Shown here piece after piece: positions 38,101 to 62,335 of a DNA stretch of 64,000 bases (the stretch's first letter is position 1; every line of letters begins with the position of its first letter). The translations under genes were made by a program, and so were the position numbers. Location of the stretch: the NCBI GenBank assembly GCA_951812785.1, contig OX638335.1:447630-511629 (forward strand), read 5' to 3'. A model generated the notes under the pieces. It did not search any database. It worked only from the letters and a program-made list of their open reading frames with translations, and was not told the DNA's origin. This stretch comes from an uncultured Gammaproteobacteria bacterium (GTDB taxonomy: Bacteria > Pseudomonadota > Gammaproteobacteria > UBA4575).

Positions 38101-39088
38101 TACGCGACACGAAGTAACTCAGCTCTCTGGCCGTGGTGTGGGAATGGATGTTGTTTATTCGGGCATCAAAGATCTTAATGGGTCGGTTGTTATTCGTTCG
38201 GAATTAAATCAAGGTATGAATGTTGAACTGTCGCTGCCTATATCCTCATTGATGGCGCATGCACTGTTAATTCCTACATTGTTAGGGACAATAGCTGTAT
38301 CTGCGACTGGTATAGAAGAAGTATTACAAGTCAATTCGGATCTATTGAAAGAAACTGAGCATGGATTAACTATGCAAGTAGGGGATAAAGAAATTCCAGC
38401 AATACATCTCGAGCAATTATTGAAAATGCATTTAACAAGACCTTTCAATAAACAACAAAATTTTACTGCGTTGTTGATAGAAGGGTTTGGTGGCCAGGGA
38501 AAAATCATATTGGTAAATGAAATACAAAGTGTACGAGATGTTATAATTAAGCCACTTAGCCTTTATTTGCCTAAAATGGTTGGTTTGGTAGGGGCAGCCG
38601 TACTAGGTAATGGTGATATCGCTCCTGTAGTGGATGTTGGAGGCCTGTTGTCTGAACAAGAAAATGATGTGGTTGGAAAGCTTAATATTGAGCACTTTAC
38701 AGAAGTAGAAAAAATTTATCAGGCTAGTGTGTTAGTTGTAGAAGATTCAATTAGTACACGTCGATCACTTGCTGAATTTATGCAAGATTTAAATTATAAA
38801 GTGTATACCGCAAAAGATGGTGTCGAAGCGATTGAAATAATGCGCGATCATTCGCCAACACTCTTGCTAACAGACTTAGAAATGCCGCGTATGAATGGTC
38901 TAGAATTAACTTCTTATGTTAGATTTCATGATGAAACTAAAAATATACCTATTATCATGCTTACTTCTCGTACAACAGAAAAACATCGCAAAGAGGCGAA
39001 GTCTATAGGTGTTAACGAGTATCTATCAAAACCATTTGTCGAAGATGTGCTATTGGAAAAAGTGCATAGCCTTGTCAATAAAAGGTAA
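35144..39088 (+). pseudogene. chpA: ChpA hybrid chemotaxis kinase, multiple nonsense codons and frameshifts
   Basis: Domains in order: an acidic N-terminal region with two 90-residue repeats, one recognisable HPt domain (RIAHTIKGAANTVGIVGVAT, with the phospho-acceptor His), a dimerisation region (IDELINQSGESIIATSQMHG), CheA-type ATPase (VDPLMHLLRNAVDHGIES, GRGVGMDVV), a CheW-like domain and a C-terminal receiver (LLLTDLEMPRMNG). In-frame TGA at 36254 and TAA at 36806, then frame changes near 37085, 37822 and 37997, the last beside an AAA run. Only the 3' frame from 37949 is long and clean. The kinase cannot be made in one piece. Confidence 0.87.
35558..36103 (+). repeat. 270-bp tandem repeat, two copies, in chpA
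   Basis: The unit starting ACTGTTAATGATAATCTAGA at 35558 recurs at 35828, 270 bases (90 codons) later, with EFENSSLEENIQE, LLGVDQAVS and IDELFVAD in both. Copies have diverged by several substitutions and a 6-base insertion, so the duplication is not new. Confidence 0.85.
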
Positions 39089-42672: not shown

Positions 42673-43512
42673 TTATCTTCTCACGGCAGGCCCGTTGATG
42701 GGTAAGCCATTATTCATATGAGTATGAAAGTATTCTAAATTTCTGTATGTTTCGCTTTGTGTTTCAAATGGTGCAGCACGTACTTGTTTATTGCAGCCAA
42801 TATATCTTCTATGTAATGGCCCCAGAGCACCCCACTTGTTTCGATACGTTGGCCAGCCAGTTGTTTGTCCGAGTGCGGGGCCTAGAGATTCGGTGCGTAA
42901 CTTCTTTCCGGCATTATCGAAATGACAATGAAAACAGGCGAAGTTTAGTTGTCCACGTCGTGTAAAATAAAATTTCTTACCTTGTTGATATGCAGCTAAT
43001 GCTTTTTCGTTGGGGACGGTTATATTAATGAGTTTGTCTCTACTTTGATAGGCAATATATGCAACTAAACTATTCATCTCCATACTCATGTAATTTAAAT
43101 CAGGTAATGCGTGAGATTGTCTGCATAAATTAATTGCATACGGCACAGTAACAACTGTATTTAGTTGATCATCCCATTTTGGGTACTGGTGTTTTATCAC
43201 GGGTCCATCTGGGAAGCATTTGTCATAGGAAGAACTGTTGGCTTGCCAATATTCTTTGCCAGTATCAATGTGTATCTCATAAGGTGGAAATTCTTCCAAG
43301 GCTTCCCAGTTTTCTCTAGCAGTGCTGTCTAAGGCATAAACACCGTTAGCAAAATCTTCGAATGGCACTTCAGGAAAACGTTTCTTAAAATAATTCTGTA
43401 TTAAGTTGAGGTCTTTTATATGCTTAGAGTTCTTTAACTCAGCATAGCCAAATGAGGTTGTATATAGATAAGTTATTAATATAAAGCTGAGTGTTTTGAA
43501 AAAATTAAACAT
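42673..43512 (-). CDS. soxA: Thiosulfate-oxidising cytochrome SoxA
   Basis: 279 residues with a signal peptide. With SoxX it attaches thiosulfate to the SoxYZ carrier. One heme motif, CFHCH, in LNFACFHCHFDNAGKKLR; the N-terminal site (INLCRQSHA) lacks the second Cys, so this is a mono-heme SoxA. The active-site and heme-ligand cysteine is in RRYIGCNKQVRAAP. WPTYRNKWGALGPLHRRY is the family signature. Starts 15 bp after soxY. Confidence 0.92.
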   Translation of the reverse strand: MFNFFKTLSFILITYLYTTSFGYAELKNSKHIKDLNLIQNYFKKRFPEVPFEDFANGVYALDSTARENWEALEEFPPYEIHIDTGKEYWQANSSSYDKCFPDGPVIKHQYPKWDDQLNTVVTVPYAINLCRQSHALPDLNYMSMEMNSLVAYIAYQSRDKLINITVPNEKALAAYQQGKKFYFTRRGQLNFACFHCHFDNAGKKLRTESLGPALGQTTGWPTYRNKWGALGPLHRRYIGCNKQVRAAPFETQSETYRNLEYFHTHMNNGLPINGPAVRR

Positions 43513-43527
43513 ATTGTCAATTCGATT

Positions 43528-43989
43528 TTACCCACCACAGCCACCGATGGTGACCTTAATGCCTTTTGAGGCAGTGAAATATTGATTATCTGTGGTGGAA
43601 ACAACAACAATAATATTAGATGACTTAGCCATTTTAACTCGTGTAGATACATAGGCTTCTAATTGCGGATTGATGTCATAAGAGGAAGTTAATGGGCTTG
43701 GGTTATTATCGACGAGAATCGATATTTTGTTTACGTTTGCTATTGAGGTGTCCACAGTGACAGGGACAACGGCTCCATTTTCTGCAATTTCTGGTGCTTT
43801 GATGTGAATAGCCTCGCTAACCATCAATTCTGCATTATTGGTAAGTGAATTAATCAATTCATCAGCACTAGCCTGATTAAATAATGCTTTTTGCCAGCTA
43901 GCGGTGACACTATTGAATCCACTGAAAAGTGATAATGTTAATAGACCGATAGTTTGCTGTAGAAATGTTCTTTTAGTGATTTTAAGCAT
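43528..43989 (-). CDS. soxY: Sulfur carrier protein SoxY
   Basis: 153 residues. A twin-arginine-like signal with Lys-Arg (TKRTFLQQTIG), then an Ig-like domain, and the C-terminal GGCGG swinging arm whose Cys carries the sulfur substrate. Its obligate partner SoxZ is not next to it: soxA follows after 15 bp. The KR variant of the Tat motif is less common but functional in some proteins. Confidence 0.92.
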   Translation of the reverse strand: MLKITKRTFLQQTIGLLTLSLFSGFNSVTASWQKALFNQASADELINSLTNNAELMVSEAIHIKAPEIAENGAVVPVTVDTSIANVNKISILVDNNPSPLTSSYDINPQLEAYVSTRVKMAKSSNIIVVVSTTDNQYFTASKGIKVTIGGCGG

Positions 43990-43997
43990 GATAATAC

Positions 43998-44336
43998 CTA
44001 TAGAGAGTGTATGAAATCGACAACTTGATCAATTTCATTTTCAGTGAGTATGCGATGTTTGCCAAAAGGTGGCATAACTGTGATGGGGTTAAACTGAGTT
44101 TCGTCCCAGATTCTTTTTCGTAATAGACCCTTATCAGGGTAGCGCTGCTTCATGTTAGATAGTGCCGGTCCAATATTTCCAGGACTTTCTCCACCTTTAA
44201 TCGCATGGCAAGCGAGACAATTGCCCTTGGTTCTATCGAATGTTAACTGCTTACCATCAGCATAAGAAATAGCGGTCATACTTGCTAATAGGCAGATAAT
44301 GAAAATACTAATCTGGGTTATATGTAGATTGAGCAT
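43998..44336 (-). CDS. soxX: Cytochrome c SoxX
   Basis: 112 residues. Signal peptide (IFIICLLASMTAISYA), heme motif CLACH in NCLACHAIKGGESPGNIGPA, and the Met ligand in VMPPFG. First gene of soxXYA-K; electron acceptor half of SoxXA. Ends 8 bp before soxY. Confidence 0.92.
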   Translation of the reverse strand: MLNLHITQISIFIICLLASMTAISYADGKQLTFDRTKGNCLACHAIKGGESPGNIGPALSNMKQRYPDKGLLRKRIWDETQFNPITVMPPFGKHRILTENEIDQVVDFIHSL

Positions 44337-44577: not shown

Positions 44578-47169
44578 CTATCTAGCCTGGTATTGCTCAG
44601 CTATTCTATAATTAAGCTCTCTTAACTTATTGTTATTTATATTAATATCAAGGGTTTCTGCTTGTCTTAAATTATTAGCATGGGCAACTATTTCAGGTGC
44701 ATTCAGGTCTTTGGCATTAAACGCTACAAATATCACTGGATGTCCGTGCCATTTGCTTGGGATTGTCCATTGTTCGTACATACTAGCAGTCCGTTTCACT
44801 GCGTTCCTGGAGATAATATTATTCACCTGTTTGTCTACATCATAGAATCGTAGTGCGCTAGCAATGGACCATTTGCTCATTCCTATGATGAGTGGTTTCT
44901 GACCAGTCTCTTGGGTGATTTGTTTCTCGATCGAATTTAGTTCTTGAGCCGCTTGCTTCCAAAAGTAATGGTTAGTAATTTGCGTATTTATTTTTACAGG
45001 CAATCCTAGTGCTGCGTAGTGGAATAGTCCGCCATAGATTAAGCACAGTATGGCTGCTGAATATAATGTTAATTTAGTAAACAATTTTTTATTAGCAAAA
45101 CTAGAAGTAGGACTTAATGCATAAGACATTAATGGAATTGCAATCAGCCAAATAGGAACTGTCCAGTGAAATCTAGGGTAGTGGCTGAAGCTAAAATAGA
45201 TGTACACACCTAATGGAATGAGCGTGAAGGTTAAAAAATATTGCTTATATAGTTTGATGTCTGATGGATTTTTTATTTTTTCAGTGACTAGTGATGATAA
45301 GTTTTTATAAACATTAGCGATGAATAGCAGGACAAATGGAGATAGCAATATTACTAGATGTAGCAATAAATAGTGTGTCGAAAATTCTGTGGATCGGTCT
45401 AGCCGGCGTGTCGTTTGGAATAAAAACGAGCTCCATTCATTTTGCCAATTCCAATAAACAGTGGGTGCAAATAGGATCAGGGAAGTTATTCCTGCTATAT
45501 AAAGAATCGGCTGCTTCCACCATTGTCGTGAAGGTTTATTGATGCATATAAAAATAACTATACCTAGGGCAATGAGCGCCATTGAGTATCTTGAAAGCAT
45601 GCCTAGCCCTATACAAATACCTAGACTTACCCATGAAAAGGATGAATTTTTTAATACTATTTTGGCTATCAAATACAAACATGCTGCCCATAGAGCTACT
45701 TGAAGAGCATCGGTTGTAGCCAGAAATCCTGTCGCAACAGAAAATGGAATAGTAGAAGTGAGTAATAGAGAGATGTAGGCTGAAGTTTTATCAAATAATA
45801 ATGAGCTAAGGCGGTAGATGAAATAGAGTGTTGCTATTCCACAGCAGTAGGAAAAAAATCGTACGCCAAATTCGTTGTCACCAAACACGCTAGTGCCAAG
45901 CCAGATTAACCACGCAATCATAGGAGGGTGGTCTAAATAACCTATGCTTAAGTGCTCTTTGTAATTCCAGTAGTAAGCTTCATCGGGAATCAGTTCGGTT
46001 GTGCCTAAGTATAGGAAACGTAAAGCCAACATGAATCCAGTGGCAGCGATGGCTAATACACGCCAATTTATTGAGCTATGCTTAAAGTTATTACTAGTAT
46101 GCGCAGAGAAAACAATAAAAGATGCGCCAAAATAATTGACTAAAGCGGCTGCTATGATTGCTGGGTATATGGCCAAACTAGGACTAACATTAAATAAGTT
46201 GATCAAGATTGCCAGTACGCCGCCGCGTATAGTTAATGCAATTAAACCGAAATAAGTATATTTAACGGCGTTGCTGAGCCAGCTGCCAAATGAGTTATGT
46301 GTATATTTGAACGACCATATTGAGTTGAACAGATAGTTAAAAGTAGCCGCAATAAAAAAACTACTAATATGAGAATTGCTGACACTCCATTGTTTGCTTA
46401 AGAATAGCTGGAAAAACAACGCATCAATTACCACGCCAAGTATGCCTACTGCCATAAAGCGACTAGCGGTGGAGCTGTTAATTCGTCCGCCGCTTAATTC
46501 AAGTAAGCGTTGAAAATATTGAATGAGTTGCTTGCTAGATAGCTTGGATTCACCAAGTACGCGATCTGTGAATACTATAGGTGTTTCAGTAACCCTGAAC
46601 TTGTCTAAGCCAGAAGCAAGTAATTCTAATAGTACTTTATATCCTCTTGCATCTTGATCAATATTGGAAAAGCATTCTTTTCTGCAAGCAAAAAATCCTG
46701 AAGTGGTGTCTTTAACATCAGTTAGTACTCTGGCGGGTAATCCGCTAAACCAAGATAGAGATCGTCTATGAATAGGCCAATCTGCAATGCCGCCGTCTTT
46801 AGTGTAACGACTACCAACAACGACATCATGAGTGCCATCAATTATTGGTTTAAGTAAGTGTGGAACCCGGTCAATCGGATGACTTAAATCAGCATCCATG
46901 ACTAATACATAGACTGAGTTGCTTGCAGCAACGCCATCTAATATGGCTTGTGTTAAATCAGGATTGCTAGTTCGTTGTAATACAGATATCCAATTGAAGC
47001 TGTTACTCCAAGCATTGATCTTTTTGATAGTGTTGTCTTTGGACTGGTCGTCTACAAATAAGATCTTGATGTCACAATTATCAACAGTGACTTGAGTTAA
47101 GCCTTCTAAAAGAAGGTCAATATTGTCTTGTTCATTCAGCGTGGGAATGATTATTGTGGCGCTGCTCAT
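44578..47169 (-). CDS. Three-domain GT2 / GtrA / GT39-83-type glycosyltransferase fusion
   Basis: 863 residues. Domain 1 (about 1-230) is a polyprenol-phosphate glycosyltransferase of the DPM1 type (IIIPTLNEQDNIDLLLEG, VMDADLSHP, TSGFFACRKE). Domain 2 (about 235-350) has four helices of the GtrA flippase family (RFMAVGILGVVIDALFFQLF). Domain 3 (about 370-863) is a PMT/ArnT-like multi-spanning transferase with the catalytic ELIPDEAYYWNY loop. One protein could load a sugar on a lipid, flip it and transfer it outside. Last gene of the 13-gene operon. Confidence 0.88.
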   Translation of the reverse strand: MSSATIIIPTLNEQDNIDLLLEGLTQVTVDNCDIKILFVDDQSKDNTIKKINAWSNSFNWISVLQRTSNPDLTQAILDGVAASNSVYVLVMDADLSHPIDRVPHLLKPIIDGTHDVVVGSRYTKDGGIADWPIHRRSLSWFSGLPARVLTDVKDTTSGFFACRKECFSNIDQDARGYKVLLELLASGLDKFRVTETPIVFTDRVLGESKLSSKQLIQYFQRLLELSGGRINSSTASRFMAVGILGVVIDALFFQLFLSKQWSVSNSHISSFFIAATFNYLFNSIWSFKYTHNSFGSWLSNAVKYTYFGLIALTIRGGVLAILINLFNVSPSLAIYPAIIAAALVNYFGASFIVFSAHTSNNFKHSSINWRVLAIAATGFMLALRFLYLGTTELIPDEAYYWNYKEHLSIGYLDHPPMIAWLIWLGTSVFGDNEFGVRFFSYCCGIATLYFIYRLSSLLFDKTSAYISLLLTSTIPFSVATGFLATTDALQVALWAACLYLIAKIVLKNSSFSWVSLGICIGLGMLSRYSMALIALGIVIFICINKPSRQWWKQPILYIAGITSLILFAPTVYWNWQNEWSSFLFQTTRRLDRSTEFSTHYLLLHLVILLSPFVLLFIANVYKNLSSLVTEKIKNPSDIKLYKQYFLTFTLIPLGVYIYFSFSHYPRFHWTVPIWLIAIPLMSYALSPTSSFANKKLFTKLTLYSAAILCLIYGGLFHYAALGLPVKINTQITNHYFWKQAAQELNSIEKQITQETGQKPLIIGMSKWSIASALRFYDVDKQVNNIISRNAVKRTASMYEQWTIPSKWHGHPVIFVAFNAKDLNAPEIVAHANNLRQAETLDININNNKLRELNYRIAEQYQAR

Positions 47170-47197: not shown

Positions 47198-48871
47198 CTA
47201 TTTGATATAAATATTAGAGAAATGATACCAGAAATCAGAGTTGTATACGTCAGGTTTACGCTGGATTCTACAGTGAAAACCTATACTTAGTTCTTCCCAT
47301 GATTTTTGATGCTGAATTATTTGCCAAAGTGAAGTGGCTCTTACTTTAATCAATAACTGGCGTCGATTATTTAGTTCTTTGTCGTATTCGCAGTGTATCC
47401 TTTGATAATGTTTGATCTGAATATTTATTTGATTGCTGAAATCGATAATTAAGCCTTTTTCTAAATGTGTGAAATCTGGTGTGCACGGGAGTAGATAAAG
47501 GATTAAATCATCTTGAAATTGACTAGCCGAAAAATACTTTTGAGTTGTACTGAAAAATTCTTTTTCATCTGGTTGGTATTCATTCGCTAAATATTGATCA
47601 ATATCATTTATTGAAATAATTGGGCGGCTAATATTGCTTGGGCTGGTTTCTATGGTTTGACTAATAGTGATTTTGTCTGTTGCTATGGGATCAATAGTGA
47701 CTATGCCTGGATAGGATTTATGTATTTGCTCTGCAATACTTTGTTGTGAATTTTTAATGTTATTTATCTTGATGTACTCATCTCTTGGCGCAGTTTCTAA
47801 GAAGTATCCTGCATAGGGCATATATGATTTAGGCTTGCATGTTGCAATATATTTAGAGATCGATTTTTTTACTGATAGGTGTCTATTGTGTGTTATCTGT
47901 AATTTTTCATCTTCGCTATAATGATCGAAACACCAGGGATGCCCAGAAGCACCTGCTGCGAATGAAGTCGCGAGAAAATCAATCTCTGTTGGAAGTACGT
48001 AGTGATTAAGAGCAGATGAGTCAACAGTAATAAGCGCTTGTTTCTTTCCGTAGCTTATGTATAAGCCACTATCATCCCTGAAATCTCCAGATTTCAAGAT
48101 TGATATATAAATGCCGTGCGTGCCTAATTTGTGAATCTGGTTAAATGCAAGAGGGATAATATTAGAGAATCCCATGTTGCGTAGTGGCCTTTCAGCTGAT
48201 TTCGTTTTGAAATCGGGAATAACTATCGGGATATCTGGTCGGCTCTGATAAAGTTTTACCAGGGTTTCTTCGTGCATATGATCTGGGTGATTATGAGAGA
48301 TATAAACCAGATCGGCATTTAATAGTTGATCTAAAGCATCACTGCTTGGTGCAGGGTTGTGCCACCAACCATTCATGAAGCAAGGTCCTATAAGCCATGG
48401 ATCAGTAATAATATTAATAGAGCCGCAAGTAAATAGCAGACTAGCATGGGCTATGAAGCGTATTTCCAAGGCATGTGTTTTTTGTTTTGAATATATATTT
48501 TCAGGAAGTTTTAAATGACTCCTGGGCTGGTGCACTATGACTTCTTTGTTGATGATTTGAAAATCAAGTTTTTCTTTAGCAACGTTTACATTGCTATAGT
48601 GAAGTATATCTAAGTCTAATTTCCAGCCATGCAAAGGGCATTCTGCAAAGCGATTGTCTTTGCATGGTTGTAAAGTTCCGCTTACATGATCACAACTGCG
48701 TGAAACAATCCATTCTACTTGCTTGTCTTTAGATAGCCTGAGAATGTGTTTGTCTTGATAATTTATACCTGAGTCTAACTTATCGATATTATATTTATAA
48801 TGGCTATTACTTTTATCACTGACGTTTGCAAATGAACCTGCTAGTCGAAGTTGAATATTTTTCCCTTCCAT
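47198..48871 (-). CDS. CMP-N-acetylneuraminate hydroxylase (CMAH) homologue
   Basis: 557 residues (mouse CMAH 577). CMAH hydroxylates CMP-Neu5Ac to CMP-Neu5Gc using a Rieske centre. Rieske ligands: CDH at 60-62 and CPLH at 78-81, followed by GWKLDLD as in the animal HNWKLDV. Metallo-beta-lactamase-like part: HNHPDH at 193-198 in YISHNHPDHMHEETL, preceded by DPWLIGPCFMNGWW. Further matches recalled from animal CMAH: AAGASGHPWCF (animal FAGGASGFP), YAGYFLETAPRDEYIK and the C-terminal SIGFHCRIQRKPDVY. Lies in an operon with neuB, neuC and neuA. No cytochrome b5 or reductase is nearby. Identification as a CMAH homologue is secure; substrate is inferred from context. Confidence 0.88.
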   Translation of the reverse strand: MEGKNIQLRLAGSFANVSDKSNSHYKYNIDKLDSGINYQDKHILRLSKDKQVEWIVSRSCDHVSGTLQPCKDNRFAECPLHGWKLDLDILHYSNVNVAKEKLDFQIINKEVIVHQPRSHLKLPENIYSKQKTHALEIRFIAHASLLFTCGSINIITDPWLIGPCFMNGWWHNPAPSSDALDQLLNADLVYISHNHPDHMHEETLVKLYQSRPDIPIVIPDFKTKSAERPLRNMGFSNIIPLAFNQIHKLGTHGIYISILKSGDFRDDSGLYISYGKKQALITVDSSALNHYVLPTEIDFLATSFAAGASGHPWCFDHYSEDEKLQITHNRHLSVKKSISKYIATCKPKSYMPYAGYFLETAPRDEYIKINNIKNSQQSIAEQIHKSYPGIVTIDPIATDKITISQTIETSPSNISRPIISINDIDQYLANEYQPDEKEFFSTTQKYFSASQFQDDLILYLLPCTPDFTHLEKGLIIDFSNQINIQIKHYQRIHCEYDKELNNRRQLLIKVRATSLWQIIQHQKSWEELSIGFHCRIQRKPDVYNSDFWYHFSNIYIK

Positions 48872-48901
48872 GGATGGATTAATTTTTGATAATACTAATC
48901 G

Positions 48902-50260
48902 TTAACAATTGAATTGGAATATATCATTAGAAAGTCGAGAGATATTAATTTTATTAAATCGACCAGTAAGATGCTGAAAGCGCTCAACTCGTGTATGCAA
49001 ATAATCAACATCAATCAATGGGAATCGGTGTTTATGATATGCAGCGCTATTGCGATGTGAGGATTGCTTCCTCTTTATGTGTTTTACAAGTGTTCTGGCA
49101 TTATTGTGTAATAGTCCGGGTAGGCGGGAAAGTGTATTTTTCTGGTGATAAGGGCTATTGGTGTATTCATGAGATAACGTAGCAATTATTTTATCTGTTG
49201 CAAAATCGCCGCTTAAGCTATTAATATGTTCTGATAGTAAGTCGTAATTGTTACTGCTACTGATAGTATTAATAGATAGGACGGATTCAATTTTTTCTAT
49301 TAACTGCTGATTGGTGTTAGCAATGTCGCAAAGAGATTTTGGTAGAGCATCATCTATTTGATCGTTAGTTACTGGGTAATATCCAAGTGTGGGTTTGTCT
49401 AATACCGTGGCTTCAATTGAAGTAGTGCAGCCGTTAGAGATTAGTGCTTTTGACCCCATAATCCAGGCAACGACATTGCCGTTATTAGCTACATGGATAT
49501 TTCCATTGCTGGCAAAAAGTTGTTGCCAAGTTTTTACATTTTCAGAAGGATGAGGCCGTACAACAAAATTTAGTGATGGGAATGTTTCTGCCAGTAATGG
49601 CATTAGTTTCTTGAATTCGTTAAATAGCATTTGCTTGTGTTTGAAACGATCGCTAATAAAATTATCATTAGAACTCGCGCTAAAATTCTTATCTCTATTG
49701 GCTTCGTTACTGCCTACGCTGGGAATAAAGTGGTTTACCTGGCCAAAATTAGTATTAATGAGAATGTAATCGCCATACTGTTCAATTATATTATTGGTCT
49801 CAGGCAGAAAATAATTGCGTAACTCTGGTCTTAATATGTCGATTCTTGGGTTGCCAACAGTGTGCACAGGTTGATTGTTATATGCTGGATAGTGTCTGAA
49901 AACTTGCGTGCCACTGTTGCCCCATGCAAACAAGTGATCAATATAGTTGAAGGCGATTGGAGATAAGCGATGCATATAGTATTGCTCATCAGGAAGCCTT
50001 ACTAAACTCTCTTCGTCCCAGGCAACAATTCTGTGTCCTAGACCATTTAGAATTTTAAACATTTTATCGCTGAATCGACGCATGCTCTTGGCTAGATAAA
50101 CTGCATTGCATACTTTTGATGAGTAATAGTGTATGTAGGCGCGTGAGCCAATAACAGTATTGAAGCCTTTTTCTGCTGCTGCACAAGCGAGTAGTATCTT
50201 TCCGTCTAATTCGCGCACCTGGCTTTCAACGGGTATGAGTAAGGTATTAAATGAACTCAT
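48902..50260 (-). CDS. Surface-carbohydrate biosynthesis protein (GT-B-like), paralogue 2
   Basis: 452 residues. Starts LLIPVESQVRELDGKILLAC and has VVRPHPSENVKTW and ISNGCTTSIEATVLDKPTLG, marks of the surface carbohydrate biosynthesis family that resembles CDP-glycerol transferases and other GT-B folds. Paralogous to the 51783-53159 gene over the full length. No classical bacterial sialyltransferase (GT38, 42, 52, 80) is in this operon, so the two paralogues are the best candidates to use the CMP-sialic acid. Shares one base with the neuA stop. Confidence 0.8.
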   Translation of the reverse strand: MSSFNTLLIPVESQVRELDGKILLACAAAEKGFNTVIGSRAYIHYYSSKVCNAVYLAKSMRRFSDKMFKILNGLGHRIVAWDEESLVRLPDEQYYMHRLSPIAFNYIDHLFAWGNSGTQVFRHYPAYNNQPVHTVGNPRIDILRPELRNYFLPETNNIIEQYGDYILINTNFGQVNHFIPSVGSNEANRDKNFSASSNDNFISDRFKHKQMLFNEFKKLMPLLAETFPSLNFVVRPHPSENVKTWQQLFASNGNIHVANNGNVVAWIMGSKALISNGCTTSIEATVLDKPTLGYYPVTNDQIDDALPKSLCDIANTNQQLIEKIESVLSINTISSSNNYDLLSEHINSLSGDFATDKIIATLSHEYTNSPYHQKNTLSRLPGLLHNNARTLVKHIKRKQSSHRNSAAYHKHRFPLIDVDYLHTRVERFQHLTGRFNKINISRLSNDIFQFNC

Positions 50261-50976
50261 TAGTTGATATGTATTTCACTTAATAGCACTTCGGCTAGTT
50301 TTAAATCAATTTCTTCATCTATATTGACTACTGGTCGCTCAATAATGATAGGAATGCATTGTTGTTCCATTAAGTTATTTTTTTCTACTAAACTCTCGCG
50401 AGTTGTGGCATAGCAAATACCGTTGCGATGATAATAATTTGGGATGTGCTGGCGTATGGAATATTTAATTCCATTTTCTAAATATGGAGCAATAAAACCT
50501 GCTTCAGATAACTGTAATGTTTTATGAGGAGTATAGTGCCCTGGTGTTTTACTTACAGTGGCGACACTCAATGCTTGTTTCTCAATTAATAAATTAACAG
50601 CATTGGTGATATCTTCCGCTGTTCTCATTGGACTGGTTGGTTCTAATAATACCGAGATATCGAATTTCTTATTGTAATGATTCTCGCAATATAACCAAGC
50701 ATGCTTCCATACATCAATCGATTTTGCATCATCAGTAGATAATTCTTCAGGGCGTGTGAATGGCACATCTATATCTGAATCACGTGCATGTGCGCGTATT
50801 TCATCGTCATCAGAACTAACTACTATGGCATCAATCCAGTCTAGTTGCTTTACACAGTCAGCGGCGTGCGCGATTAATGATTTGCCATTGATATGACGTA
50901 GATTTTTACGCAATACACCTTTACTCCCACCCCGTGCTGGAATAACAGCAAGAATATTATTGTTCTTGAGAGTCAT
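50260..50976 (-). CDS. neuA: CMP-sialic acid synthetase (NeuA type)
   Basis: 238 residues. Activates N-acetylneuraminate (or a related nonulosonate) with CTP. The N-terminal nucleotide loop VIPARGGSKGVLRKNLRHIN, VSSDDDEI, and LEPTSPMRTAEDI are family motifs. Together with neuB and neuC it gives the whole UDP-GlcNAc to CMP-sialate route. Genes for legionaminate or pseudaminate (aminotransferase, dehydratase) are absent, so Neu5Ac is the likely sugar. Confidence 0.9.
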   Translation of the reverse strand: MTLKNNNILAVIPARGGSKGVLRKNLRHINGKSLIAHAADCVKQLDWIDAIVVSSDDDEIRAHARDSDIDVPFTRPEELSTDDAKSIDVWKHAWLYCENHYNKKFDISVLLEPTSPMRTAEDITNAVNLLIEKQALSVATVSKTPGHYTPHKTLQLSEAGFIAPYLENGIKYSIRQHIPNYYHRNGICYATTRESLVEKNNLMEQQCIPIIIERPVVNIDEEIDLKLAEVLLSEIHIN

Positions 50977-50995
50977 GATAGTGTGTATTTATTAA

Positions 50996-51778
50996 CTAAC
51001 GTTTTTCAGCAAGGATAGAAAATCCAACAGGGAATTTAGTGTGTTCACGCACTAAATTGATTGTAAATTTTTCATCCCATTTTTTTAGTCGTGGCCAATG
51101 TTCGGTGTAAAACCATTGTTCAGTTTTCTTTCGTTCTTCAGGCGGCATGTATTCCAAGGCCTGTAGCCAACAATAACCAATTGCACTGAATGGTCCGCCA
51201 TCAAGCTGTGTATCTATTGGTTGTAAGCCCACTGAACGCATAATTTCATGCATGCCATAGGGTGTATAACGCAAGTAATCATCTGGGATTTGATGCAACT
51301 CTCTTAATGTTGGTTCAAATATAAATACTTTGCCATTAGGTTTAGTGATTCTAGCCATTTCGCTAAATAAGGCATTCTGGTTCGCTATGTGATGGACTAA
51401 GTTAGGAACTAACACTAAGTCAGCGCTATTGTCTTCAATACCTGTGTTTTCGATCGGTGCACGTTTTGTAATGGGTACGCGTAAGAAATTTTTATCGATC
51501 ACTTTATTTTTATTGTAAGCGCCACGATCATCAGCACTTTCTGGGCTGCCATCTATGGAGGTAAATTCTTGCTGGTGAAAATACGGGCCAACCAAGCTAA
51601 GCCCGCCATATAAAAGCCCACGTTCTAAGGATACTACAGTAGATGCTGGTGCAGCTTGTTGTGAGAGCTTTCTAACTTCTCGTAGCAATAAATCAAAGTG
51701 AGGTAAGCGATCTGTCATGAAGACCTTTTCAGCAAGGACTTGTGTGTGCTTGTTTAGCTGGTCGATTGAATAACTCAT
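50996..51778 (-). CDS. Class I SAM-dependent methyltransferase
   Basis: 260 residues with a Methyltransf_11 core: VVSLERGLLYGGLSL as motif I region, FTSIDGSPES, DNSADLVLVPNLVHHI and ITKPNGKVFIFEP. Target unknown. It lies between a surface transferase and neuA, with gaps of 4 and 19 bp, so a role in decorating the sugar or its carrier is plausible, for example O-methylation of the sialic acid. Other members of this fold act on proteins or small molecules. Confidence 0.82.
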   Translation of the reverse strand: MSYSIDQLNKHTQVLAEKVFMTDRLPHFDLLLREVRKLSQQAAPASTVVSLERGLLYGGLSLVGPYFHQQEFTSIDGSPESADDRGAYNKNKVIDKNFLRVPITKRAPIENTGIEDNSADLVLVPNLVHHIANQNALFSEMARITKPNGKVFIFEPTLRELHQIPDDYLRYTPYGMHEIMRSVGLQPIDTQLDGGPFSAIGYCWLQALEYMPPEERKKTEQWFYTEHWPRLKKWDEKFTINLVREHTKFPVGFSILAEKR

Positions 51779-51782
51779 GTGC

Positions 51783-53159
51783 TTATTGTACTAGAAAAAT
51801 ATGTGGGGATACCTGTTTAATAACCACGGAAGAATCTGTGTTTATAATTTGAGCAAATCGGTCAACTTTGGCTTGTAGCTGTTGCTCATTCAGGGTTGGG
51901 AAACGAACTTGCTGATAGGAGTGATGATATTTGGAATTAGCTGACATAGCTTTTACACGTTTAATAAGTCTGCGCTTGGTGGCTAATAAATTGCCATGTA
52001 TTTTGTTTATCAAAGTGTTTTCTTTAATTGAGCCATTGAGTATCTGTTCAATCACGCCAATGATATTGGTGCAGCTAAGCTTGTCTGTATCGAACTCTAT
52101 ATATTTTTTCAGCACATTAGAATCTAATGCGGGCACAGTGTCATTAAGGTAATTATGCAGCATTTCTGTTATTTCAGAATGATTGCTGCATTGATGACTT
52201 AACTGGTCAGGGATGATGGCACCATATCCATAACGTGGATCCGTTAGTGGCACGAAGGCTATTGCAGGCTTGTTAGAGAGATACGCCTCAATCCCAGTAG
52301 TGCACCCGCTATGAATGAGCGCAGTGGCTGCTTTAACCCATGGAATCACATTGCCTTCTTGCACTACCTCTACATTGTTATATTTAGCAGCTATGTCATA
52401 GTAGACATCTTTATTTTCAACAGGATGAGGGCGGATGATTATTTTGCTGTCCTTAAAAGTGCTTGAAAGATAAGTGATTAAAGATAAGAAGTGTTCAAAT
52501 AAGGCTTGTTTAAACTTTGCCCGGCCTTGTGAAAACTCTCGTCCCATGCCGGTGGCGCCTCTGCCCATATCTTTATAGTTGCCATGTTCATCTTTAGAAG
52601 TAAATAAATTATGTATAGGTAAGTGCGCATTAACATTACCAAAATTGGTATTGAGCAAAATAAACTTGCCGTACTTTTGTTTGATGGTGGCAATCTCGTC
52701 AGCATAATAATATTCAAAATCTTTGCGTAGCATATCTAAGCGAGGATTGCCTACTTTATGGATGGGCAACGCTGTGGGTAGCAAAGGATATTGTCTGAAT
52801 AAATCTTCATTCTCTTGCCCCCAAGCAAATAGATGGGATACATAAGAGAGTGCGATAGGAGATAGTCTGCGTTTGAAGTAAATATCAGGTGGATAATGCA
52901 CTAACGCTTCTTCGTCCCATGCGCATATAGTATGTCCGAGCTTAGATAATATACGGAACATTTTATCGCTACGATGAGTACAACTTTTGGCAAGATAAAT
53001 ACTGCGCGGGAACTTGGAAATAATAATATCCATCTCAGTTCTGTAGCCAATGTAACTTTTTATTCCTGCATTGGCTGCACATACAGCCAGAAGCAATTTA
53101 GGATCTAATTCCCTAACTTGATTTTCAATCGGTATTAATAATGGTTGAGTATCGGCCAC
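51783..53159 (-). CDS. Surface-carbohydrate biosynthesis protein (GT-B-like), paralogue 1
   Basis: 458 residues: LLIPIENQVRELDPKLLLAV, IIRPHPVENKDVY and IHSGCTTGIEAYLSNKPAIA. Same family as the 48902-50260 product, with which it shares the N-terminal block, the CAWDEEALVHYP-like motif and the C-terminal HxxxxFP and F-Q-I blocks. Gaps to neighbours are 11 and 4 bp. Probably a glycosyl- or glycerophosphotransferase for surface glycans. Confidence 0.8.
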   Translation of the reverse strand: MADTQPLLIPIENQVRELDPKLLLAVCAANAGIKSYIGYRTEMDIIISKFPRSIYLAKSCTHRSDKMFRILSKLGHTICAWDEEALVHYPPDIYFKRRLSPIALSYVSHLFAWGQENEDLFRQYPLLPTALPIHKVGNPRLDMLRKDFEYYYADEIATIKQKYGKFILLNTNFGNVNAHLPIHNLFTSKDEHGNYKDMGRGATGMGREFSQGRAKFKQALFEHFLSLITYLSSTFKDSKIIIRPHPVENKDVYYDIAAKYNNVEVVQEGNVIPWVKAATALIHSGCTTGIEAYLSNKPAIAFVPLTDPRYGYGAIIPDQLSHQCSNHSEITEMLHNYLNDTVPALDSNVLKKYIEFDTDKLSCTNIIGVIEQILNGSIKENTLINKIHGNLLATKRRLIKRVKAMSANSKYHHSYQQVRFPTLNEQQLQAKVDRFAQIINTDSSVVIKQVSPHIFLVQ

Positions 53160-53170
53160 GTGGTTTTATC

Positions 53171-54220
53171 TTAATGTTGTGTGATCATCTGATTCCACCT
53201 CTGCTCAAAAGTAGATATGATTTCCTTATCATAACAGCGAGCTATAACTTCATGGTTCAATATGCGAGATCGAGTAGACCAGTTAAAACTTCCAAACATA
53301 ACGCAGTGCTCCTGATCAGATTGATACAAGATAAACTTATTATGCATTAAGCAATGCTCTTCTAGTTTGGGCTGATAATATTTTATTTGGTATTTATCTA
53401 AGAATGTTAAATGTTTGCTAGGAACGCGGCGCTGGCTAGAGTTTAAAAGTAATTCTATTTTTTTTCCCGACTTTATGGCAATTTTTAATGGTTTCAGAAT
53501 GCTCGGGCCTTTAAGGTGTGAGATAGCACACTTTATTTTGGCATTGCTGTCTTTTTTTGATAGCAAAGTATTAATTGGGTGGGTGCCGCAGCGCGGCAGA
53601 AAATCAATTGACCATTGTGCTGACTGGTGAGTTGAATTATGTGACGATAAAATTCTGGCAAACGTTCTCCGCCAATAATTCTGCATGTCTAACATGTAGC
53701 CTTTCAGGCAGTTTACTGTGTCCTGATCATCTATTTTTATTAATACGTTATGGCTGATCGAATGGTCGCCAATTTTTTTAATCGAAGCTTCATCTATATG
53801 CTCTTTGCCTGAGGTGGGGTTGTAAGAACCGACTAATACTTGAGGTGTAGGATGAGAAAAATAATATAGTTTGCTATGTAAGTGTGGATGCCAATGGATT
53901 CCAAGATATTCCCATAGGGGTTTTTCCTTTACGATAATGAGATTAATTAAACTATGGTTGGGTTGTGAAAATCGATCAATGCATGCCTGATTAATACTAG
54001 GTGAGCGTGGTCTTCCATCAAAGATAAGGTCTATCTTTACACCTCTTTCTGAAGCATTAATTAATGTTTGGAAAATAACTGGATCATGTAAGTAGTAACA
54101 TAACCAACTGATGTGACCGTTAGCGGGCACTGCTTTAATATACTCAACTAAAGTATCGCGCAGCAGATTTTTGGTTTTATCTGGGCCGCCAAAGTAAGTC
54201 GTAGGTAGTGAACTAGCCAC
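53171..54220 (-). CDS. Phospholipase D-like protein with altered HKD motifs
   Basis: 349 residues, two PLD repeats. The first has HLHSKLYYF...LVGSYNPTSG (about 115-140), the second LMHNKFILYQ...MFGSFNWSTRS (about 300-325). In both repeats the HxK pair is present but the Asp four residues later is replaced (Ser, Gln). Hydrolysis or phosphatidyl transfer may still be possible, since His and Lys do the chemistry. It has no signal peptide. Sits between neuC and a glycosyltransferase with 18- and 11-bp gaps, so it belongs to the operon; a lipid-headgroup or CMP-sugar-linked role is conceivable. Confidence 0.78.
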   Translation of the reverse strand: MASSLPTTYFGGPDKTKNLLRDTLVEYIKAVPANGHISWLCYYLHDPVIFQTLINASERGVKIDLIFDGRPRSPSINQACIDRFSQPNHSLINLIIVKEKPLWEYLGIHWHPHLHSKLYYFSHPTPQVLVGSYNPTSGKEHIDEASIKKIGDHSISHNVLIKIDDQDTVNCLKGYMLDMQNYWRRTFARILSSHNSTHQSAQWSIDFLPRCGTHPINTLLSKKDSNAKIKCAISHLKGPSILKPLKIAIKSGKKIELLLNSSQRRVPSKHLTFLDKYQIKYYQPKLEEHCLMHNKFILYQSDQEHCVMFGSFNWSTRSRILNHEVIARCYDKEIISTFEQRWNQMITQH

Positions 54221-54238
54221 TGTGTCTGCTTGCGAGCA

Positions 54239-55393
54239 TTAATAGCGCAAAGTTTTTTCAGTATTATCACTGGCGTTTGCAATTACTTCGGCAATACGTG
54301 TGCCAGCTTGGCCATTCCCATATAGAGGATTAGATGGATATTTGCCATGTTTTATTTGTGCAACAAGAGCATTTTTAATCTCTTCACTATTGTATGCAAC
54401 GTCTATAACATTTTCGCCGCGATCTCTGCCGTTCTGGCGGCTGCCTATATTGACAGAAGGTGTTCCAATAAAAGTGCTTTCGCGAATGCCAACACTCGAA
54501 TTACCTACAATACATTGGCTACGGTTGAGTAATTGTATAAAGTTTTCCGGAGGCAGATTCTTCACGAAATGAATATTATTGGCTTCATTGTTTTCTCTAA
54601 ACGCGCGAATTCCTTTTGAGGTGCCATCTGAACCTGCGTCAACATTAGGCCAAAACCAGAGTGTTGGGATGTGGCATTGTTGAATCGCCTGTAAGGTTTG
54701 TTCTATATGTAAACGAGCCTGTTTATATTCAGTTGTGACTGGATGCTGCATGACAATAATATAAGGTTTAGATAAATCTACGCTAGCACCAACACCACCA
54801 AGTTGTTCAGTAATATGCTCGAGACTTTCATCTTGGCTCTCACAAGCTTGCATGGCTAGGTCAATTGAAGGGCATCCGGTGATGTAAACCTGCTTGGGGT
54901 CTTCACCCATTTTGATTATACGCTGGGCAGCTTGTTCGCCAGAGACGCAATGAATATCGGCTAGCTTGGTAATTGCATGCCTAACCTTTTCATCAATTGA
55001 GCCGGTGACTTCTCCACCTTGTACGTGAACTAAAGGGATATGCATGTAACTAGCAGCTATTGCGGTCGCCATGGTTTCAAAACGATCAGCAATAGTGACA
55101 ACGAAATCAGGTTGAAGGTTGTCAAATACAGTAGTAAGTTCGGTGACACCTAGACCAGTAGATTTTGCTGAAGTTACTGGATTTTCTCCTTCAACGATCA
55201 TGTATACACGGCGATCTATATAAAAGCCTTCGCTTTCTATTACTTTGTCAGCACTGCCGTAACGATCAAGCAAGGCAGAAGCAGCAACCACAAGTTGTAG
55301 CTCTAAATCTTTATGTTCGCGTACCGCATGTAGCAGAGAGCGAATTCTTGCGTAGCTGGGTCTCGCGGTAATGACAATACAAACTTTGCGCAC
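54239..55393 (-). CDS. neuC: UDP-N-acetylglucosamine 2-epimerase (hydrolysing), NeuC type
   Basis: 384 residues. Converts UDP-GlcNAc to ManNAc and UDP, the first step of sialic acid synthesis. GT-B-like epimerase fold: VITARPSYARIRSLLHAV, DFVVTIADRFETMATAIAAS, HVQGGEVTGSIDEKVRHAIT (catalytic region), and GNSSVGIRESTFIGTPSVNIG near the C terminus. Six bases after neuB. Could use UDP-diNAc-bacillosamine instead (LegG), but bacillosamine genes are not seen here. Confidence 0.92.
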   Translation of the reverse strand: MRKVCIVITARPSYARIRSLLHAVREHKDLELQLVVAASALLDRYGSADKVIESEGFYIDRRVYMIVEGENPVTSAKSTGLGVTELTTVFDNLQPDFVVTIADRFETMATAIAASYMHIPLVHVQGGEVTGSIDEKVRHAITKLADIHCVSGEQAAQRIIKMGEDPKQVYITGCPSIDLAMQACESQDESLEHITEQLGGVGASVDLSKPYIIVMQHPVTTEYKQARLHIEQTLQAIQQCHIPTLWFWPNVDAGSDGTSKGIRAFRENNEANNIHFVKNLPPENFIQLLNRSQCIVGNSSVGIRESTFIGTPSVNIGSRQNGRDRGENVIDVAYNSEEIKNALVAQIKHGKYPSNPLYGNGQAGTRIAEVIANASDNTEKTLRY

Positions 55394-55399
55394 TTAATA

Positions 55400-56446
55400 T
55401 TACTCCAAATCTTCTAAGTGAATCATCGAGTTTATTTCGATGTTTGTTTTTGATTTCCTTCTTAGAACTTCGTTAATTCTGTTGGCTGGGATGCCGGTAC
55501 CAGGTTTTTTGGTTGTGACTTTATCAGCAGTGATAATTTCGCCTGCTTTAATTTTCACGGTTGTATATAAGCTCTTCATAAATATCTGGCGTAAAGGCGT
55601 CGCTTCTGAATCTGGGGAGGATTTATCAACCGGGTGATTTGCCACTGTTTCTATATAACGAATGCCTTCGACTAATGATTTAAGCTCTTGTGTAGTAATT
55701 GATGCGACAACATCGGGGCCGAACATTTCTCGACTCAAAGTCATGTGGACTTCTAAGACTTGTATGTTCTGTGCTGCTGCTGCGAGCCCAGAATAAATTG
55801 TTCCAGAATGATCAGACAAACCTACTGCGCAATGATAATCACTTCTAAACTGATTGATAACATTGACACCGAGTCTTTCCGGGCTACATGGATACTGAGA
55901 AGTGCATTGAAGCAATGCTAATGGAGTGTTAGTTTTTTGCACGTATTTAACAGCTTCAGTAATTTCATCAGTAACACTTAGGCCTGTGGATAATATAATT
56001 GGTTTGTTAGTAGCAAGTGCACAATCTAAAAGAGGCGTGTTAGTGATTTCACCAGAAGCAATTTTCCAGGCGCCTACGCCCAAATTCTCTAATAGTTCTA
56101 CTGCTTTATTTGAAAATGGAGAGCTTAAAAAATGTAGCCCAACTTCATCTGCGTGGTGTTTAAGTTCTTGCCACTGAGGGGGCGTGAATTCCATGCGCCG
56201 CCAATAGTCCATACGGGTTTCGTCTTGATAACTAAACTTGGTGCGCCAGGGTTCGGCAGTAGTGCTTTCTTCTTCTGCGATATGGGTCTGAAATTTAATG
56301 GCATCAGCACCGGCATTTGCAGCAGCATCAATATGGGCATGTGCCATGCCTAGGCTGCCATCATGGTTTTGTGCGACCTCGGCAATAATTGCGCATGAAG
56401 CATTGTTAGAAGGTATGTCTAACCAGGTTTGAATTTTTTCAGCCAT
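55400..56446 (-). CDS. neuB: N-acetylneuraminate synthase
   Basis: 348 residues. Condenses ManNAc with phosphoenolpyruvate to Neu5Ac. NeuB barrel: AIIAEVAQNHDGSLGMAHAH, ADAIKFQTHIAEEES, GLHFLSSPFSNKAVELLENL, and VGLSDHSGTIYSGLAAAAQN; a C-terminal SAF domain (GEIITADKVTTKKPGTGIPA) caps the partner active site. Starts 40 bp after the serine palmitoyltransferase stop, the widest gap in the sialic acid half of the operon. Intact. Confidence 0.94.
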   Translation of the reverse strand: MAEKIQTWLDIPSNNASCAIIAEVAQNHDGSLGMAHAHIDAAANAGADAIKFQTHIAEEESTTAEPWRTKFSYQDETRMDYWRRMEFTPPQWQELKHHADEVGLHFLSSPFSNKAVELLENLGVGAWKIASGEITNTPLLDCALATNKPIILSTGLSVTDEITEAVKYVQKTNTPLALLQCTSQYPCSPERLGVNVINQFRSDYHCAVGLSDHSGTIYSGLAAAAQNIQVLEVHMTLSREMFGPDVVASITTQELKSLVEGIRYIETVANHPVDKSSPDSEATPLRQIFMKSLYTTVKIKAGEIITADKVTTKKPGTGIPANRINEVLRRKSKTNIEINSMIHLEDLE

Positions 56447-56486: not shown

Positions 56487-57686
56487 CTAAGCTAGTTGTT
56501 TCTTTAGTGTGGGTGTTTGAAAACTGGCAAAGGCATCAAGCACAACGTTCAGTTGTGCGTGTGTATGTGCTGCGCTGACACTGCAACGCAGTAAACATTT
56601 ACTGTTTGGTGTAGCGGGTGGCATTACCAGATTCACATATACGCCGCGATCAAACAATTTTTTCCACATAGTTAGTGCATTCACACGTTCCCCGACATTT
56701 ACTGCGATGACAGGGCTTACTTCTGGGCTAAGGTCATAGCCTAGAGACTTAAGACCATTATATAGCCAGCTGGCGTTTTCCCATAATTGTTCACGCAGAC
56801 ATGGATTGTTGCGGATTATCTCTAAAGCCGCTCTAATTGATGCTATAGTGCCTGGTGAGGGGGATGCTGTGAAAATATAAGGGCGACTTGTGTAACGAAT
56901 TACTTCTAATTCGGGATGCTGACTGACACAGAATCCACCAATGCCCGCTAAGCTTTTGCTGAATGTGCCGGTAATGAAATCGACATGCTCTTCTACACCA
57001 GATTCTTGGGATAGTCCGCGCCCACTTTCACCGAGTACACCTAACGAATGTGCTTCATCAACGAGTAGTAATGCATCATATTTTTGTTTAACGGCGACGA
57101 TTTCTCTCAAGTTTCCACGGTCACCTAGCATGCTATAGATGCCCTCAATAATAACCAGGGTTGTGGAAGTTTTGTCGCCAAGTCGACGTAAACGTTTGTC
57201 TAAGTCTTCAGCGTTGTTATGTCTAAAGTGAATAATATCAGCACCACTTAACTTGCAACCATCGTAGATTGAAGCGTGGCAGTGCTCATCAAGTATGATG
57301 GTGTCGCCTTTGCTGACCAGGGCTGAAATCATGCCTAGGTTCGCGGTGTATCCTGTTGAAAATACGATAGAGTGATCAACACCATAAAATACCGCTAGTT
57401 CCTGCTCCAATTCTTGATGACCCGCATAGGAGCCATTGGCTAGTCGTGAACCTGTAGTGCCAGTACCATAGGTTCTAGTAGCTTGGTGATTGGCGTTGAT
57501 GCATTGATTATCAAATGTCAGGCCAAGATAGTTATTGGTTCCCACCAGAATCGTTCTTCTGCCTTTAATACTGCCTTCAGTCGCTGAGTATAAATGCTCG
57601 ATGACTGCATCAAGAGGAGCCATTGAGTCAGTATCTGTAGTCACATGTTGTTGAGTGAATTGTTGAAGGCGTTCTAGTAGGCTCAT
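56487..57686 (-). CDS. spt: Serine palmitoyltransferase (bacterial, ACP-dependent type)
   Basis: 399 residues, a PLP-dependent alpha-oxoamine synthase. Joins L-serine and an acyl thioester to 3-ketosphinganine. GTGTTGSRLANGSYAGHQEL and STGYTANLGMISALVSKGDT match the Caulobacter-type SPT as I recall it; the PLP lysine is in FITGTFSKSLAGIGGFCVSQ, and the DEAHSLGVLGESGRG block is conserved. Five bases after a dedicated ACP, as in Caulobacter crescentus. A KAS-like 8-amino-7-oxononanoate synthase (BioF) is less likely because no biotin genes are near. Confidence 0.88.
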   Translation of the reverse strand: MSLLERLQQFTQQHVTTDTDSMAPLDAVIEHLYSATEGSIKGRRTILVGTNNYLGLTFDNQCINANHQATRTYGTGTTGSRLANGSYAGHQELEQELAVFYGVDHSIVFSTGYTANLGMISALVSKGDTIILDEHCHASIYDGCKLSGADIIHFRHNNAEDLDKRLRRLGDKTSTTLVIIEGIYSMLGDRGNLREIVAVKQKYDALLLVDEAHSLGVLGESGRGLSQESGVEEHVDFITGTFSKSLAGIGGFCVSQHPELEVIRYTSRPYIFTASPSPGTIASIRAALEIIRNNPCLREQLWENASWLYNGLKSLGYDLSPEVSPVIAVNVGERVNALTMWKKLFDRGVYVNLVMPPATPNSKCLLRCSVSAAHTHAQLNVVLDAFASFQTPTLKKQLA

Positions 57687-57691
57687 AAGTG

Positions 57692-57940
57692 TTATTGATT
57701 CTTTAGTTTTGATATTTCTGTGGCTAAATCTGACACGGTGTTGACATCAGGTAGTGAATTAAGAGGGATAGAGATATCAAAATGATCCTCTAGCTCCATC
57801 ATTAATTCCATTACCATCACCGAATCTAATTCTAATTCTCCCATTAAATGCTGAGATTCGGTAATCTCTATGTCTTGTTTAATAAACTGACTTAGTAGTT
57901 TGATAACGTCACTTAATATCGCATCTGCGTCATTAGTCAT
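57692..57940 (-). CDS. acpR: Acyl carrier protein of the ceramide pathway (AcpR-like)
   Basis: 82 residues. Carrier site Ser in ELELDSVMVMELMMELEDHF; acidic overall like all ACPs. Placed between the SPT and the reductase, so it most likely delivers the acyl chain from the AMP ligase to SPT, as AcpR does in Caulobacter. Confidence 0.88.
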   Translation of the reverse strand: MTNDADAILSDVIKLLSQFIKQDIEITESQHLMGELELDSVMVMELMMELEDHFDISIPLNSLPDVNTVSDLATEISKLKNQ

Positions 57941-57954
57941 AAATATATATTTGT

Positions 57955-58875
57955 CTAATTAACATTATCGCTGGAGTATAAAGTGCTAAGTCCCACTTTT
58001 AAATCCACTTTAGGCTTCCAATTGGTAATATCAGGCGTACCTTCGGCAATCCAGTTTTGATGTAGTAACTCTCTTGCTTTGCCCGGAGTCAACATCGGTG
58101 AGTAATTCAACAGTTTAGAGAATAGTACATTAGAACGCGCTGCAAGTGATAGTATAGTGCTAGGCACACGAATAATTCTAATGTTTCTATGGAAAAATAT
58201 TTCGCTTATTTTTTGAACTTTCTGCCAGCTATATTGATTCCCATCATCTGGTTCAATAGTATTCCCATATTCAGCTGTCAGGTTTAATTGACTGATTATA
58301 AGCTGGCTTAAATCAGTGACGTGTAATAGTGAAAATAATTGTTTTGTGGAATCTGGCACCCAAAGGATCCCCCGTTTCATCCAATCGAAAACTGGTTTTA
58401 ATTCTGTGTCACCTGGACCGTATACGGCAGGAGGGCGAATAATTGTCCACTGAGTTAAGTTGCTTTGCTTTAATACAGTTTCACAACAGTATTTACTGTT
58501 TGCATAATCTGAAATCGATGGCTCTCGAGCAGATAATGAGGAGATAAGTATAAATCTAACCTTGCGAGTCTGAATGGATGTCGACAATATATTTTTTGTT
58601 CCGTGGACATTGTCGTGGATAAATGACGTGGCATTAGCCCCTTTAACTCTGCCTGCACAGTGGATAACACAGTCTACTCCGGCTGTAAGCTTGTCGAGTG
58701 AGGGTTGATTATGTAAATCGCCAGAGATTATTTCTATGTTTGGGTGACTAATGGTTTTATTACTATTTCGAACCAGTATTCGTACGTGGAAATCATTGGA
58801 TAATAATGATTTTAAAATATGTGAACCAATAAATCCTGTGCTGCCGGTGAGGGCAATCACTTTAGCATCGGGCAT
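57955..58875 (-). CDS. cerR: NAD(P)-dependent 3-ketosphinganine reductase (CerR-like epimerase/dehydrogenase)
   Basis: 306 residues, extended short-chain dehydrogenase. TGSTGFIGSHILKSL binds the cofactor, YANSKYCCE is the catalytic YxxxK, and RPPAVYGPGDTELKPVFDW is the family block. In Caulobacter CerR reduces 3-ketosphinganine to sphinganine; its gene accompanies spt and acpR. The gene order ligase-cerR-acpR-spt is shared in content with that operon. Confidence 0.82.
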   Translation of the reverse strand: MPDAKVIALTGSTGFIGSHILKSLLSNDFHVRILVRNSNKTISHPNIEIISGDLHNQPSLDKLTAGVDCVIHCAGRVKGANATSFIHDNVHGTKNILSTSIQTRKVRFILISSLSAREPSISDYANSKYCCETVLKQSNLTQWTIIRPPAVYGPGDTELKPVFDWMKRGILWVPDSTKQLFSLLHVTDLSQLIISQLNLTAEYGNTIEPDDGNQYSWQKVQKISEIFFHRNIRIIRVPSTILSLAARSNVLFSKLLNYSPMLTPGKARELLHQNWIAEGTPDITNWKPKVDLKVGLSTLYSSDNVN

Positions 58876-58932
58876 AGAAGGAGCTGAGAGTGTTAGTTGC
58901 TGTGGTTAAGGGCATGGTGGCATGCCTTACTC

Positions 58933-60705: not shown

Positions 60706-61006
60706 GTTGTAGTTTAATTCCTAAAATTACAATATTATTAGTTAGTTATGTTTCTAATATGTGCCAACGATATTACTATTCTTATAAGCTTCTGCGAGCA
60801 AATTTGCCTGTTTATCAAAATATTCAAGACTGAATAATATGAACTCATCGTAAGACCATAACTTTTAAAGTATTTTGTGCTCAGCTTCAAGCTTTTATCT
60901 TACTAACTAGTGTTTTTTAGCAGTTAGTACAGCGTGATTATTCCCTAAAAATTTAGTGATTACGTACTAACAGTAGTCCTAAGAGGTACTAATGGTTAAG
61001 CTTATT
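60706..61006. promoter_or_regulatory. Leader region of the ceramide-sialate operon
   Basis: About 300 AT-rich bases between the operon and the HIT gene, both on the minus strand. The promoter of the long operon must lie here. I see no confident -35/-10 pair, operator or riboswitch. Confidence 0.45.
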
Positions 61007-61441: not shown

Positions 61442-61541
61442 TTATTATAACGCTTTGCGTGTTGCTCGGTAGTTTAAGTCAAGCAAGTGGCTTTGATGGT
61501 TTACTAGTAAAATACTGATTATAATTGCTGTCAGTAGCATT

Positions 61542-62294: not shown

Positions 62295-62335
62295 CAGCAT
62301 CAGACGTTATTTATAGTTACCACTAGGCGAAAATA

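Follow-up and report, generated by a model that had tools for sequence, protein, structure and literature searches.

A predicted CMAH-family hydroxylase in a Neu5Ac-type operon beside the ceramide genes of a gammaproteobacterium

Could a bacterium make the hydroxylated sialic acid Neu5Gc, for which no bacterial producer has yet been demonstrated (PMC6724515, PMC7845648), by a route of its own? The question is raised by a gene in a 64,000-nucleotide stretch of DNA from an uncultured gammaproteobacterium (hereafter the window, meaning the whole stretch analysed), for which a preliminary description had proposed homology with animal CMP-Neu5Ac hydroxylase (CMAH). That proposal was presented as new, a claim that has to be reduced because CMAH-like genes of bacteria are already known from surveys that, as PMC6724515 and PMC6288428 describe them, carried no activity data. 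Peri et al. 2018, as cited in PMC6288428, PMC6724515 and PMC8227644, reported CMAH-like sequences of unproven function in bacteria and algae, Helicobacter being among the bacteria according to PMC6288428, with no activity shown. The gene described here, likewise a CMAH-like gene in a microbial genome and of unproven function, is an addition to this known, uncharacterized group. What is new, set against those sequences as the citing papers present them, is the gene cassette with its complete Neu5Ac-type operon, a lineage-specific loss, a swap for a dioxygenase-like gene and the ceramide surroundings.

The open reading frame occupies positions 47198-48871 as had been described, runs along the minus strand from its ATG at 48871 to its stop at 47198 and encodes a protein of 557 amino acids. 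The sequence blocks read from it earlier are all present, i.e., a Rieske motif (C60-x-H62 ... C78-x2-H81), a metallo-β-lactamase (MBL) metal site of the HxHxDH type (HNHPDH, residues 193-198), GWW (168-170), AGASG (306-310), GYFLE (355-359) and a C-terminal GFH-R-QR-PD block near residues 531-541. In BLASTP against a mouse CMAH reference sequence that was entered by hand rather than taken from a database entry, the protein gave 189 bits (E=2e-57, 44% positives) over 569 columns, covering almost its entire length. The Rieske ligands C60, H62, C78 and H81, and residues H193, H195, D197, H198, D267 and D284, were invariant in a seven-row alignment of six bacterial proteins with the mouse sequence. 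The order of domains, Rieske and then MBL, is also that of CMAH, and GWW, GASG, AGYF-E and C-terminal GF--R--R-PD blocks are common to the bacterial and vertebrate proteins. They differ in that identity is 27%, and in that the bacterial gene sits in a neuBCA operon, in a genome with no cytochrome b5 match.

A generic Rieske-MBL oxidoreductase, or an MBL hydrolase, with no role in sialic acid metabolism would be consistent with the Pfam result for this protein, in which Lactamase_B_3 alone was above the cut-off and the Rieske domain fell below the reporting limit; a Pfam Rieske match was present in two relatives (L035 and L004). However, in a tree of full proteins the CMAH-like rows, which included a single animal sequence and none from algae, formed one side of a branch with support of 98/97, and a tree of the MBL domain only again kept them with CMAH and separated them from generic MBL and Rieske-MBL proteins (99/96). 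The protein therefore joins CMAH rather than the generic Rieske-MBL oxygenases, a placement among which had been named as one outcome that would speak against the proposal. Rv3818-type proteins, found in Nocardia and on Rhodococcus plasmids, likewise combine MBL and Rieske domains in one protein, but they are ordered MBL-SCP2-Rieske, unlike the CMAH-like protein, and were separate from it in the trees. With the four Rieske ligands invariant and hydroxylases first among the fold matches described below, we consider the generic reading highly improbable. By homology, the 557-residue protein is judged a true bacterial member of the CMAH family. The trees did not resolve the branching inside the CMAH-like group and hence give no direction for a transfer between bacteria and animals; a search for viral relatives yielded MBL proteins only.

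In a sequence search of the PDB no CMAH structure was found, and the sole match was FrsH (8a90). An AlphaFold2 model built from four sequences had a pTM of 0.70 and a mean pLDDT of 70.6, the least confident parts (pLDDT <50) being the loops of the metal site and possible CMP pocket. When this model was compared with known folds, CmlA and FrsH ranked at the top, before every MBL hydrolase, which favours an O2-activating diiron site in the predicted structure rather than a hydrolytic one. CmlA and FrsH are diiron hydroxylases whose substrates are amino acids bound to nonribosomal peptide synthetases. In both of them the MBL fold serves O2-dependent hydroxylation, as proposed for the CMAH-like protein, although no N-terminal Rieske domain is apparent in them in alignments, unlike the protein studied here.

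The gene is the twelfth in a run of 13 co-directional genes on the minus strand that extends from position 60705 to 44578 and whose intergenic distances are -1 to 57 bp. In order of transcription, the first are a fatty acyl-AMP ligase (aasR-like, 58933-60705; 762 bits, cut-off 600), an NAD-dependent SDR/epimerase (cerR-like, 57955-58875), an 82-residue acyl carrier protein (acpR-like, 57692-57940) and serine palmitoyltransferase (spt, 56487-57686; 402 bits to 2x8u, KBL 220). There follow NeuB (55400-56446), the hydrolysing UDP-GlcNAc 2-epimerase NeuC (54239-55393), a PLD-like protein (53171-54220; PLDc_2 in Pfam), a surface carbohydrate biosynthesis protein of family TIGR04396 (51783-53159; 344 bits), a SAM methyltransferase (50996-51778; Methyltransf_11 in Pfam), the CMP-nonulosonate synthetase NeuA (50260-50976), another TIGR04396 protein (48902-50260; 366 bits, cut-off 125), which is a candidate nonulosonate transferase, the CMAH-like protein, and a glycosyltransferase in which Pfam recognized a GT2-GtrA-PMT_2 fusion (44578-47169). 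The sialate cassette, from neuB to the CMAH-like gene, thus spans 47198-56446. We infer operon status from the spacing and the conserved gene order, a terminator scan within the run having given little excess over the shuffled expectation. The placing of neuB, neuC and neuA in the same operon as the CMAH-like gene therefore agrees with the preliminary description.

Elsewhere in the window, SoxA, SoxY and SoxX-like genes were seen at 42673-44336, followed in L018 by urease and urea transporter-like genes; the Sox genes suggest thiosulfate oxidation in a sulfur-oxidizing bacterium. A habitat as a sponge symbiont, which the Sox genes had prompted us to consider, was not supported, the genome having no ankyrin proteins. 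At 35144-39088, four successive plus-strand open reading frames resemble pieces of a single chemotaxis kinase of the CheA/PilL type, possibly frameshifted.

Which sugar would the operon make? NeuC scored 252 bits against human GNE and 190 bits against the legionaminic enzyme LegG. NeuB, the single NeuB of the genome, was closest to the meningococcal Neu5Ac synthase (SiaC/NeuB; 162 bits, with PseI at 144 bits), although its score of 313 with the NCBIfam Neu5Ac-synthase model TIGR03569 was below the cut-off of 400. The best solved relative of NeuA was a CMP-Neu5Ac synthetase (6ifd). No LegC/PseC aminotransferase was above cut-off, the best DegT proteins of the genome being far below it. Taken together, these results favour Neu5Ac as operon product and point to a sugar of the Neu5Ac type, in line with the complete sialic acid operon proposed at the outset; a legionaminic or pseudaminic product is unlikely on the same grounds. 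A DegT-family aminotransferase divided between two frames was seen at G000:C1:1004245-1005086.

The typing also bears on another substrate or another position of attack for the hydroxylase itself, which might take a CMP-nonulosonate other than CMP-Neu5Ac, an N-acyl group of another kind, or a sugar methylated by the methyltransferase of the operon, which has no assigned target. In favour of this is a homologue with 34% identity in another genome, G090 (L035/L037, G090:C23), which lies in a surface polysaccharide locus of legionaminic type (LegC 528 bits, cut-off 420; NeuC nearer to LegG, 232 versus 217 bits; NeuB and NeuA present). Members of the CMAH family are therefore accompanied by nonulosonate genes in two settings unrelated to each other, so that the family may accept substrates beyond Neu5Ac, and the G090 homologue suggests, from its gene context, N-acyl hydroxylation of other nonulosonates. 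However, the three typing comparisons (NeuC, NeuB and NeuA) all point to Neu5Ac in the present genome, where LegC and PseC were not found above cut-off, and we regard a substrate other than CMP-Neu5Ac, or another hydroxylated position, as possible but unlikely here.

Full-length CMAH relatives were rare, being present in 3 of 369 gammaproteobacterial genomes, including that of the window, and no further one was found among 398 genomes of the phylum. In G139, NeuB was about 58 kb from the CMAH gene. A homologue with 38% identity was found in one alphaproteobacterial metagenome-assembled genome (L004, JABDBP010000003.1), in which NeuB was not found in the 1.3 Mb of sequence examined, a result that counts against hydroxylation of CMP-Neu5Ac by the protein of the window. 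That homologue adjoins TPR, methyltransferase and acyltransferase genes.

The cassette with its CMAH-like gene was common to three genomes of the same genus, i.e., those of the window, G003 and G004. In a sister species of that genus (G002) all of the other cassette genes were kept, and CMAH was reduced to about 30 codons matching residues 521-550 with 70% identity, flanked by the same two neighbours. The CMAH-like gene has been lost independently while the remaining operon persists, and hydroxylation would therefore be a late and dispensable step. The remnant itself (L019:15039-15202) contains stops; there is a parallel in the repeated losses of CMAH in animals. In a different genus of the same family (G008), the cassette was kept with a protein of 275 amino acids in the CMAH slot (L066:11121-11945), for which no match was found in Pfam, NCBIfam, PHROGs or the PDB. 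When an alignment was read by eye, a pattern HxD...H...R was common to five distant homologues of this protein; Fe(II)/2-oxoglutarate dioxygenases carry this pattern, making the protein dioxygenase-like by motif. The CMAH slot may thus hold alternative oxygenases. The PLD-like protein (53171-54220) was also kept in the cassette and was its fastest-evolving member, with 51-74% identity within the genus.

The loss in G002 raises the question of whether the gene of the window is itself a remnant whose activity has been lost or is being lost, all the more as it belongs, with 76% identity, to the less well conserved part of the cassette (NeuC, 94%). However, its frame of 557 codons is intact and every predicted ligand is kept. 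Comparison with G003 gave pN of 0.13 and pS of 0.68, i.e., an omega of about 0.08, a value made approximate by nearly saturated synonymous sites. Purifying selection on the gene is strong, and decay of its function is very unlikely.

What would the sialate decorate? The ligase, SDR, acyl carrier protein and serine palmitoyltransferase genes are in the same order as aasR, cerR, acpR and spt of Caulobacter (CC_1165-CC_1162), part of the ceramide/phosphosphingolipid cluster CC_1152-CC_1168 (PMC11324152). That cluster also contains N-acyltransferase-like, lipid kinase, CDP-alcohol transferase, nucleotidyltransferase and LptF/LptG genes. In the present genome, plus-strand genes from 61542 onwards encode a fatty acid hydroxylase superfamily protein (61542-62294), likely a sphingolipid tailoring enzyme, a GNAT-like protein (cerS-like, 62336-63487), by its position in the locus and fold family only a likely ceramide synthase, and then two nucleotidyltransferases, LptF/LptG, a CDP-alcohol transferase and a lipid kinase. 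The ceramide locus (56487-63487) runs beyond the window into L017 (G000:C1:500000-519999), and by gene content and order we take it to be a complete Caulobacter-type ceramide/phosphosphingolipid locus in a gammaproteobacterium. It differs from the Caulobacter cluster in that the sialate cassette with CMAH comes after spt, between it and the GT2-GtrA-PMT glycosyltransferase gene, which keeps its place beside the ceramide genes where relatives lack the neu cassette.

The sharing of one co-directional run with serine palmitoyltransferase, acyl carrier protein, SDR and acyl-AMP ligase genes would also fit a hydroxylase acting on ceramide or its fatty acyl chains. However, the locus already has its own fatty acid hydroxylase. 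Three genomes (G001, G005 and G010) have ceramide genes but no neu genes and no CMAH-like gene; serine palmitoyltransferase was found in G001 and G005, where neither NeuB nor CMAH was found in the genome. Conversely, G090 has a CMAH homologue together with its nonulosonate genes, and serine palmitoyltransferase was unmatched there. CMAH therefore follows the sialate genes and not the ceramide genes. A role as sphingolipid hydroxylase was rejected for this reason, and we give it scarcely any credence.

The place at which the cassette is inserted nevertheless suggests that the sialate sugar may end on a sphingolipid. In G001, of the same genus, spt directly adjoins the GT2-PMT gene with no cassette, and in G005 and G010 other, unrelated genes occupy the interval. 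On these grounds, the cassette might decorate the sphingolipid made by the surrounding genes, yielding a ganglioside-like ceramide that carries hydroxylated sialic acid (Neu5Gc); this we offer as a tentative and rather doubtful extension.

The preliminary description had placed the electron donor outside the window, and no cytochrome b5 gene was recognized in the window's open reading frames that were examined. The complete 2.16-Mb genome likewise gave zero matches to PF00173 (cytochrome b5), but encodes several Fer2 ferredoxins and reductases, so that a donor other than cytochrome b5 is expected. Cytochrome b5 is a partner of CMAH and not a property of the CMAH protein itself.

We consider it probable, if well short of certain, that the enzyme hydroxylates the CMP-Neu5Ac of its own operon to CMP-Neu5Gc, with electrons supplied by a ferredoxin/reductase chain; the substrate, the hydroxylated position, the donor and the final acceptor are those that we infer. 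NeuC would convert UDP-GlcNAc to ManNAc, NeuB would condense ManNAc with PEP to give Neu5Ac, and NeuA would activate this to CMP-Neu5Ac, whose N-acetyl methyl group would then be hydroxylated by the CMAH-like enzyme before transferases placed Neu5Gc on the cell surface. Electrons would pass from the ferredoxin/reductase chain to the Rieske cluster and then to the diiron centre of the MBL domain, which would activate O2 by analogy with CmlA.

The bacterium is thus a strong candidate for a Neu5Gc producer, with Neu5Gc the best inference as to its sugar. With all of the genes for Neu5Ac beside a relative of CMAH, the locus makes bacterial synthesis of Neu5Gc directly testable, and it offers a potential soluble bacterial enzyme for production of CMP-Neu5Gc. 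It also provides a conserved cassette from which CMAH was recently lost in one species and in which a different, oxygenase-like gene holds the slot elsewhere, and it bears on the origin of animal CMAH.
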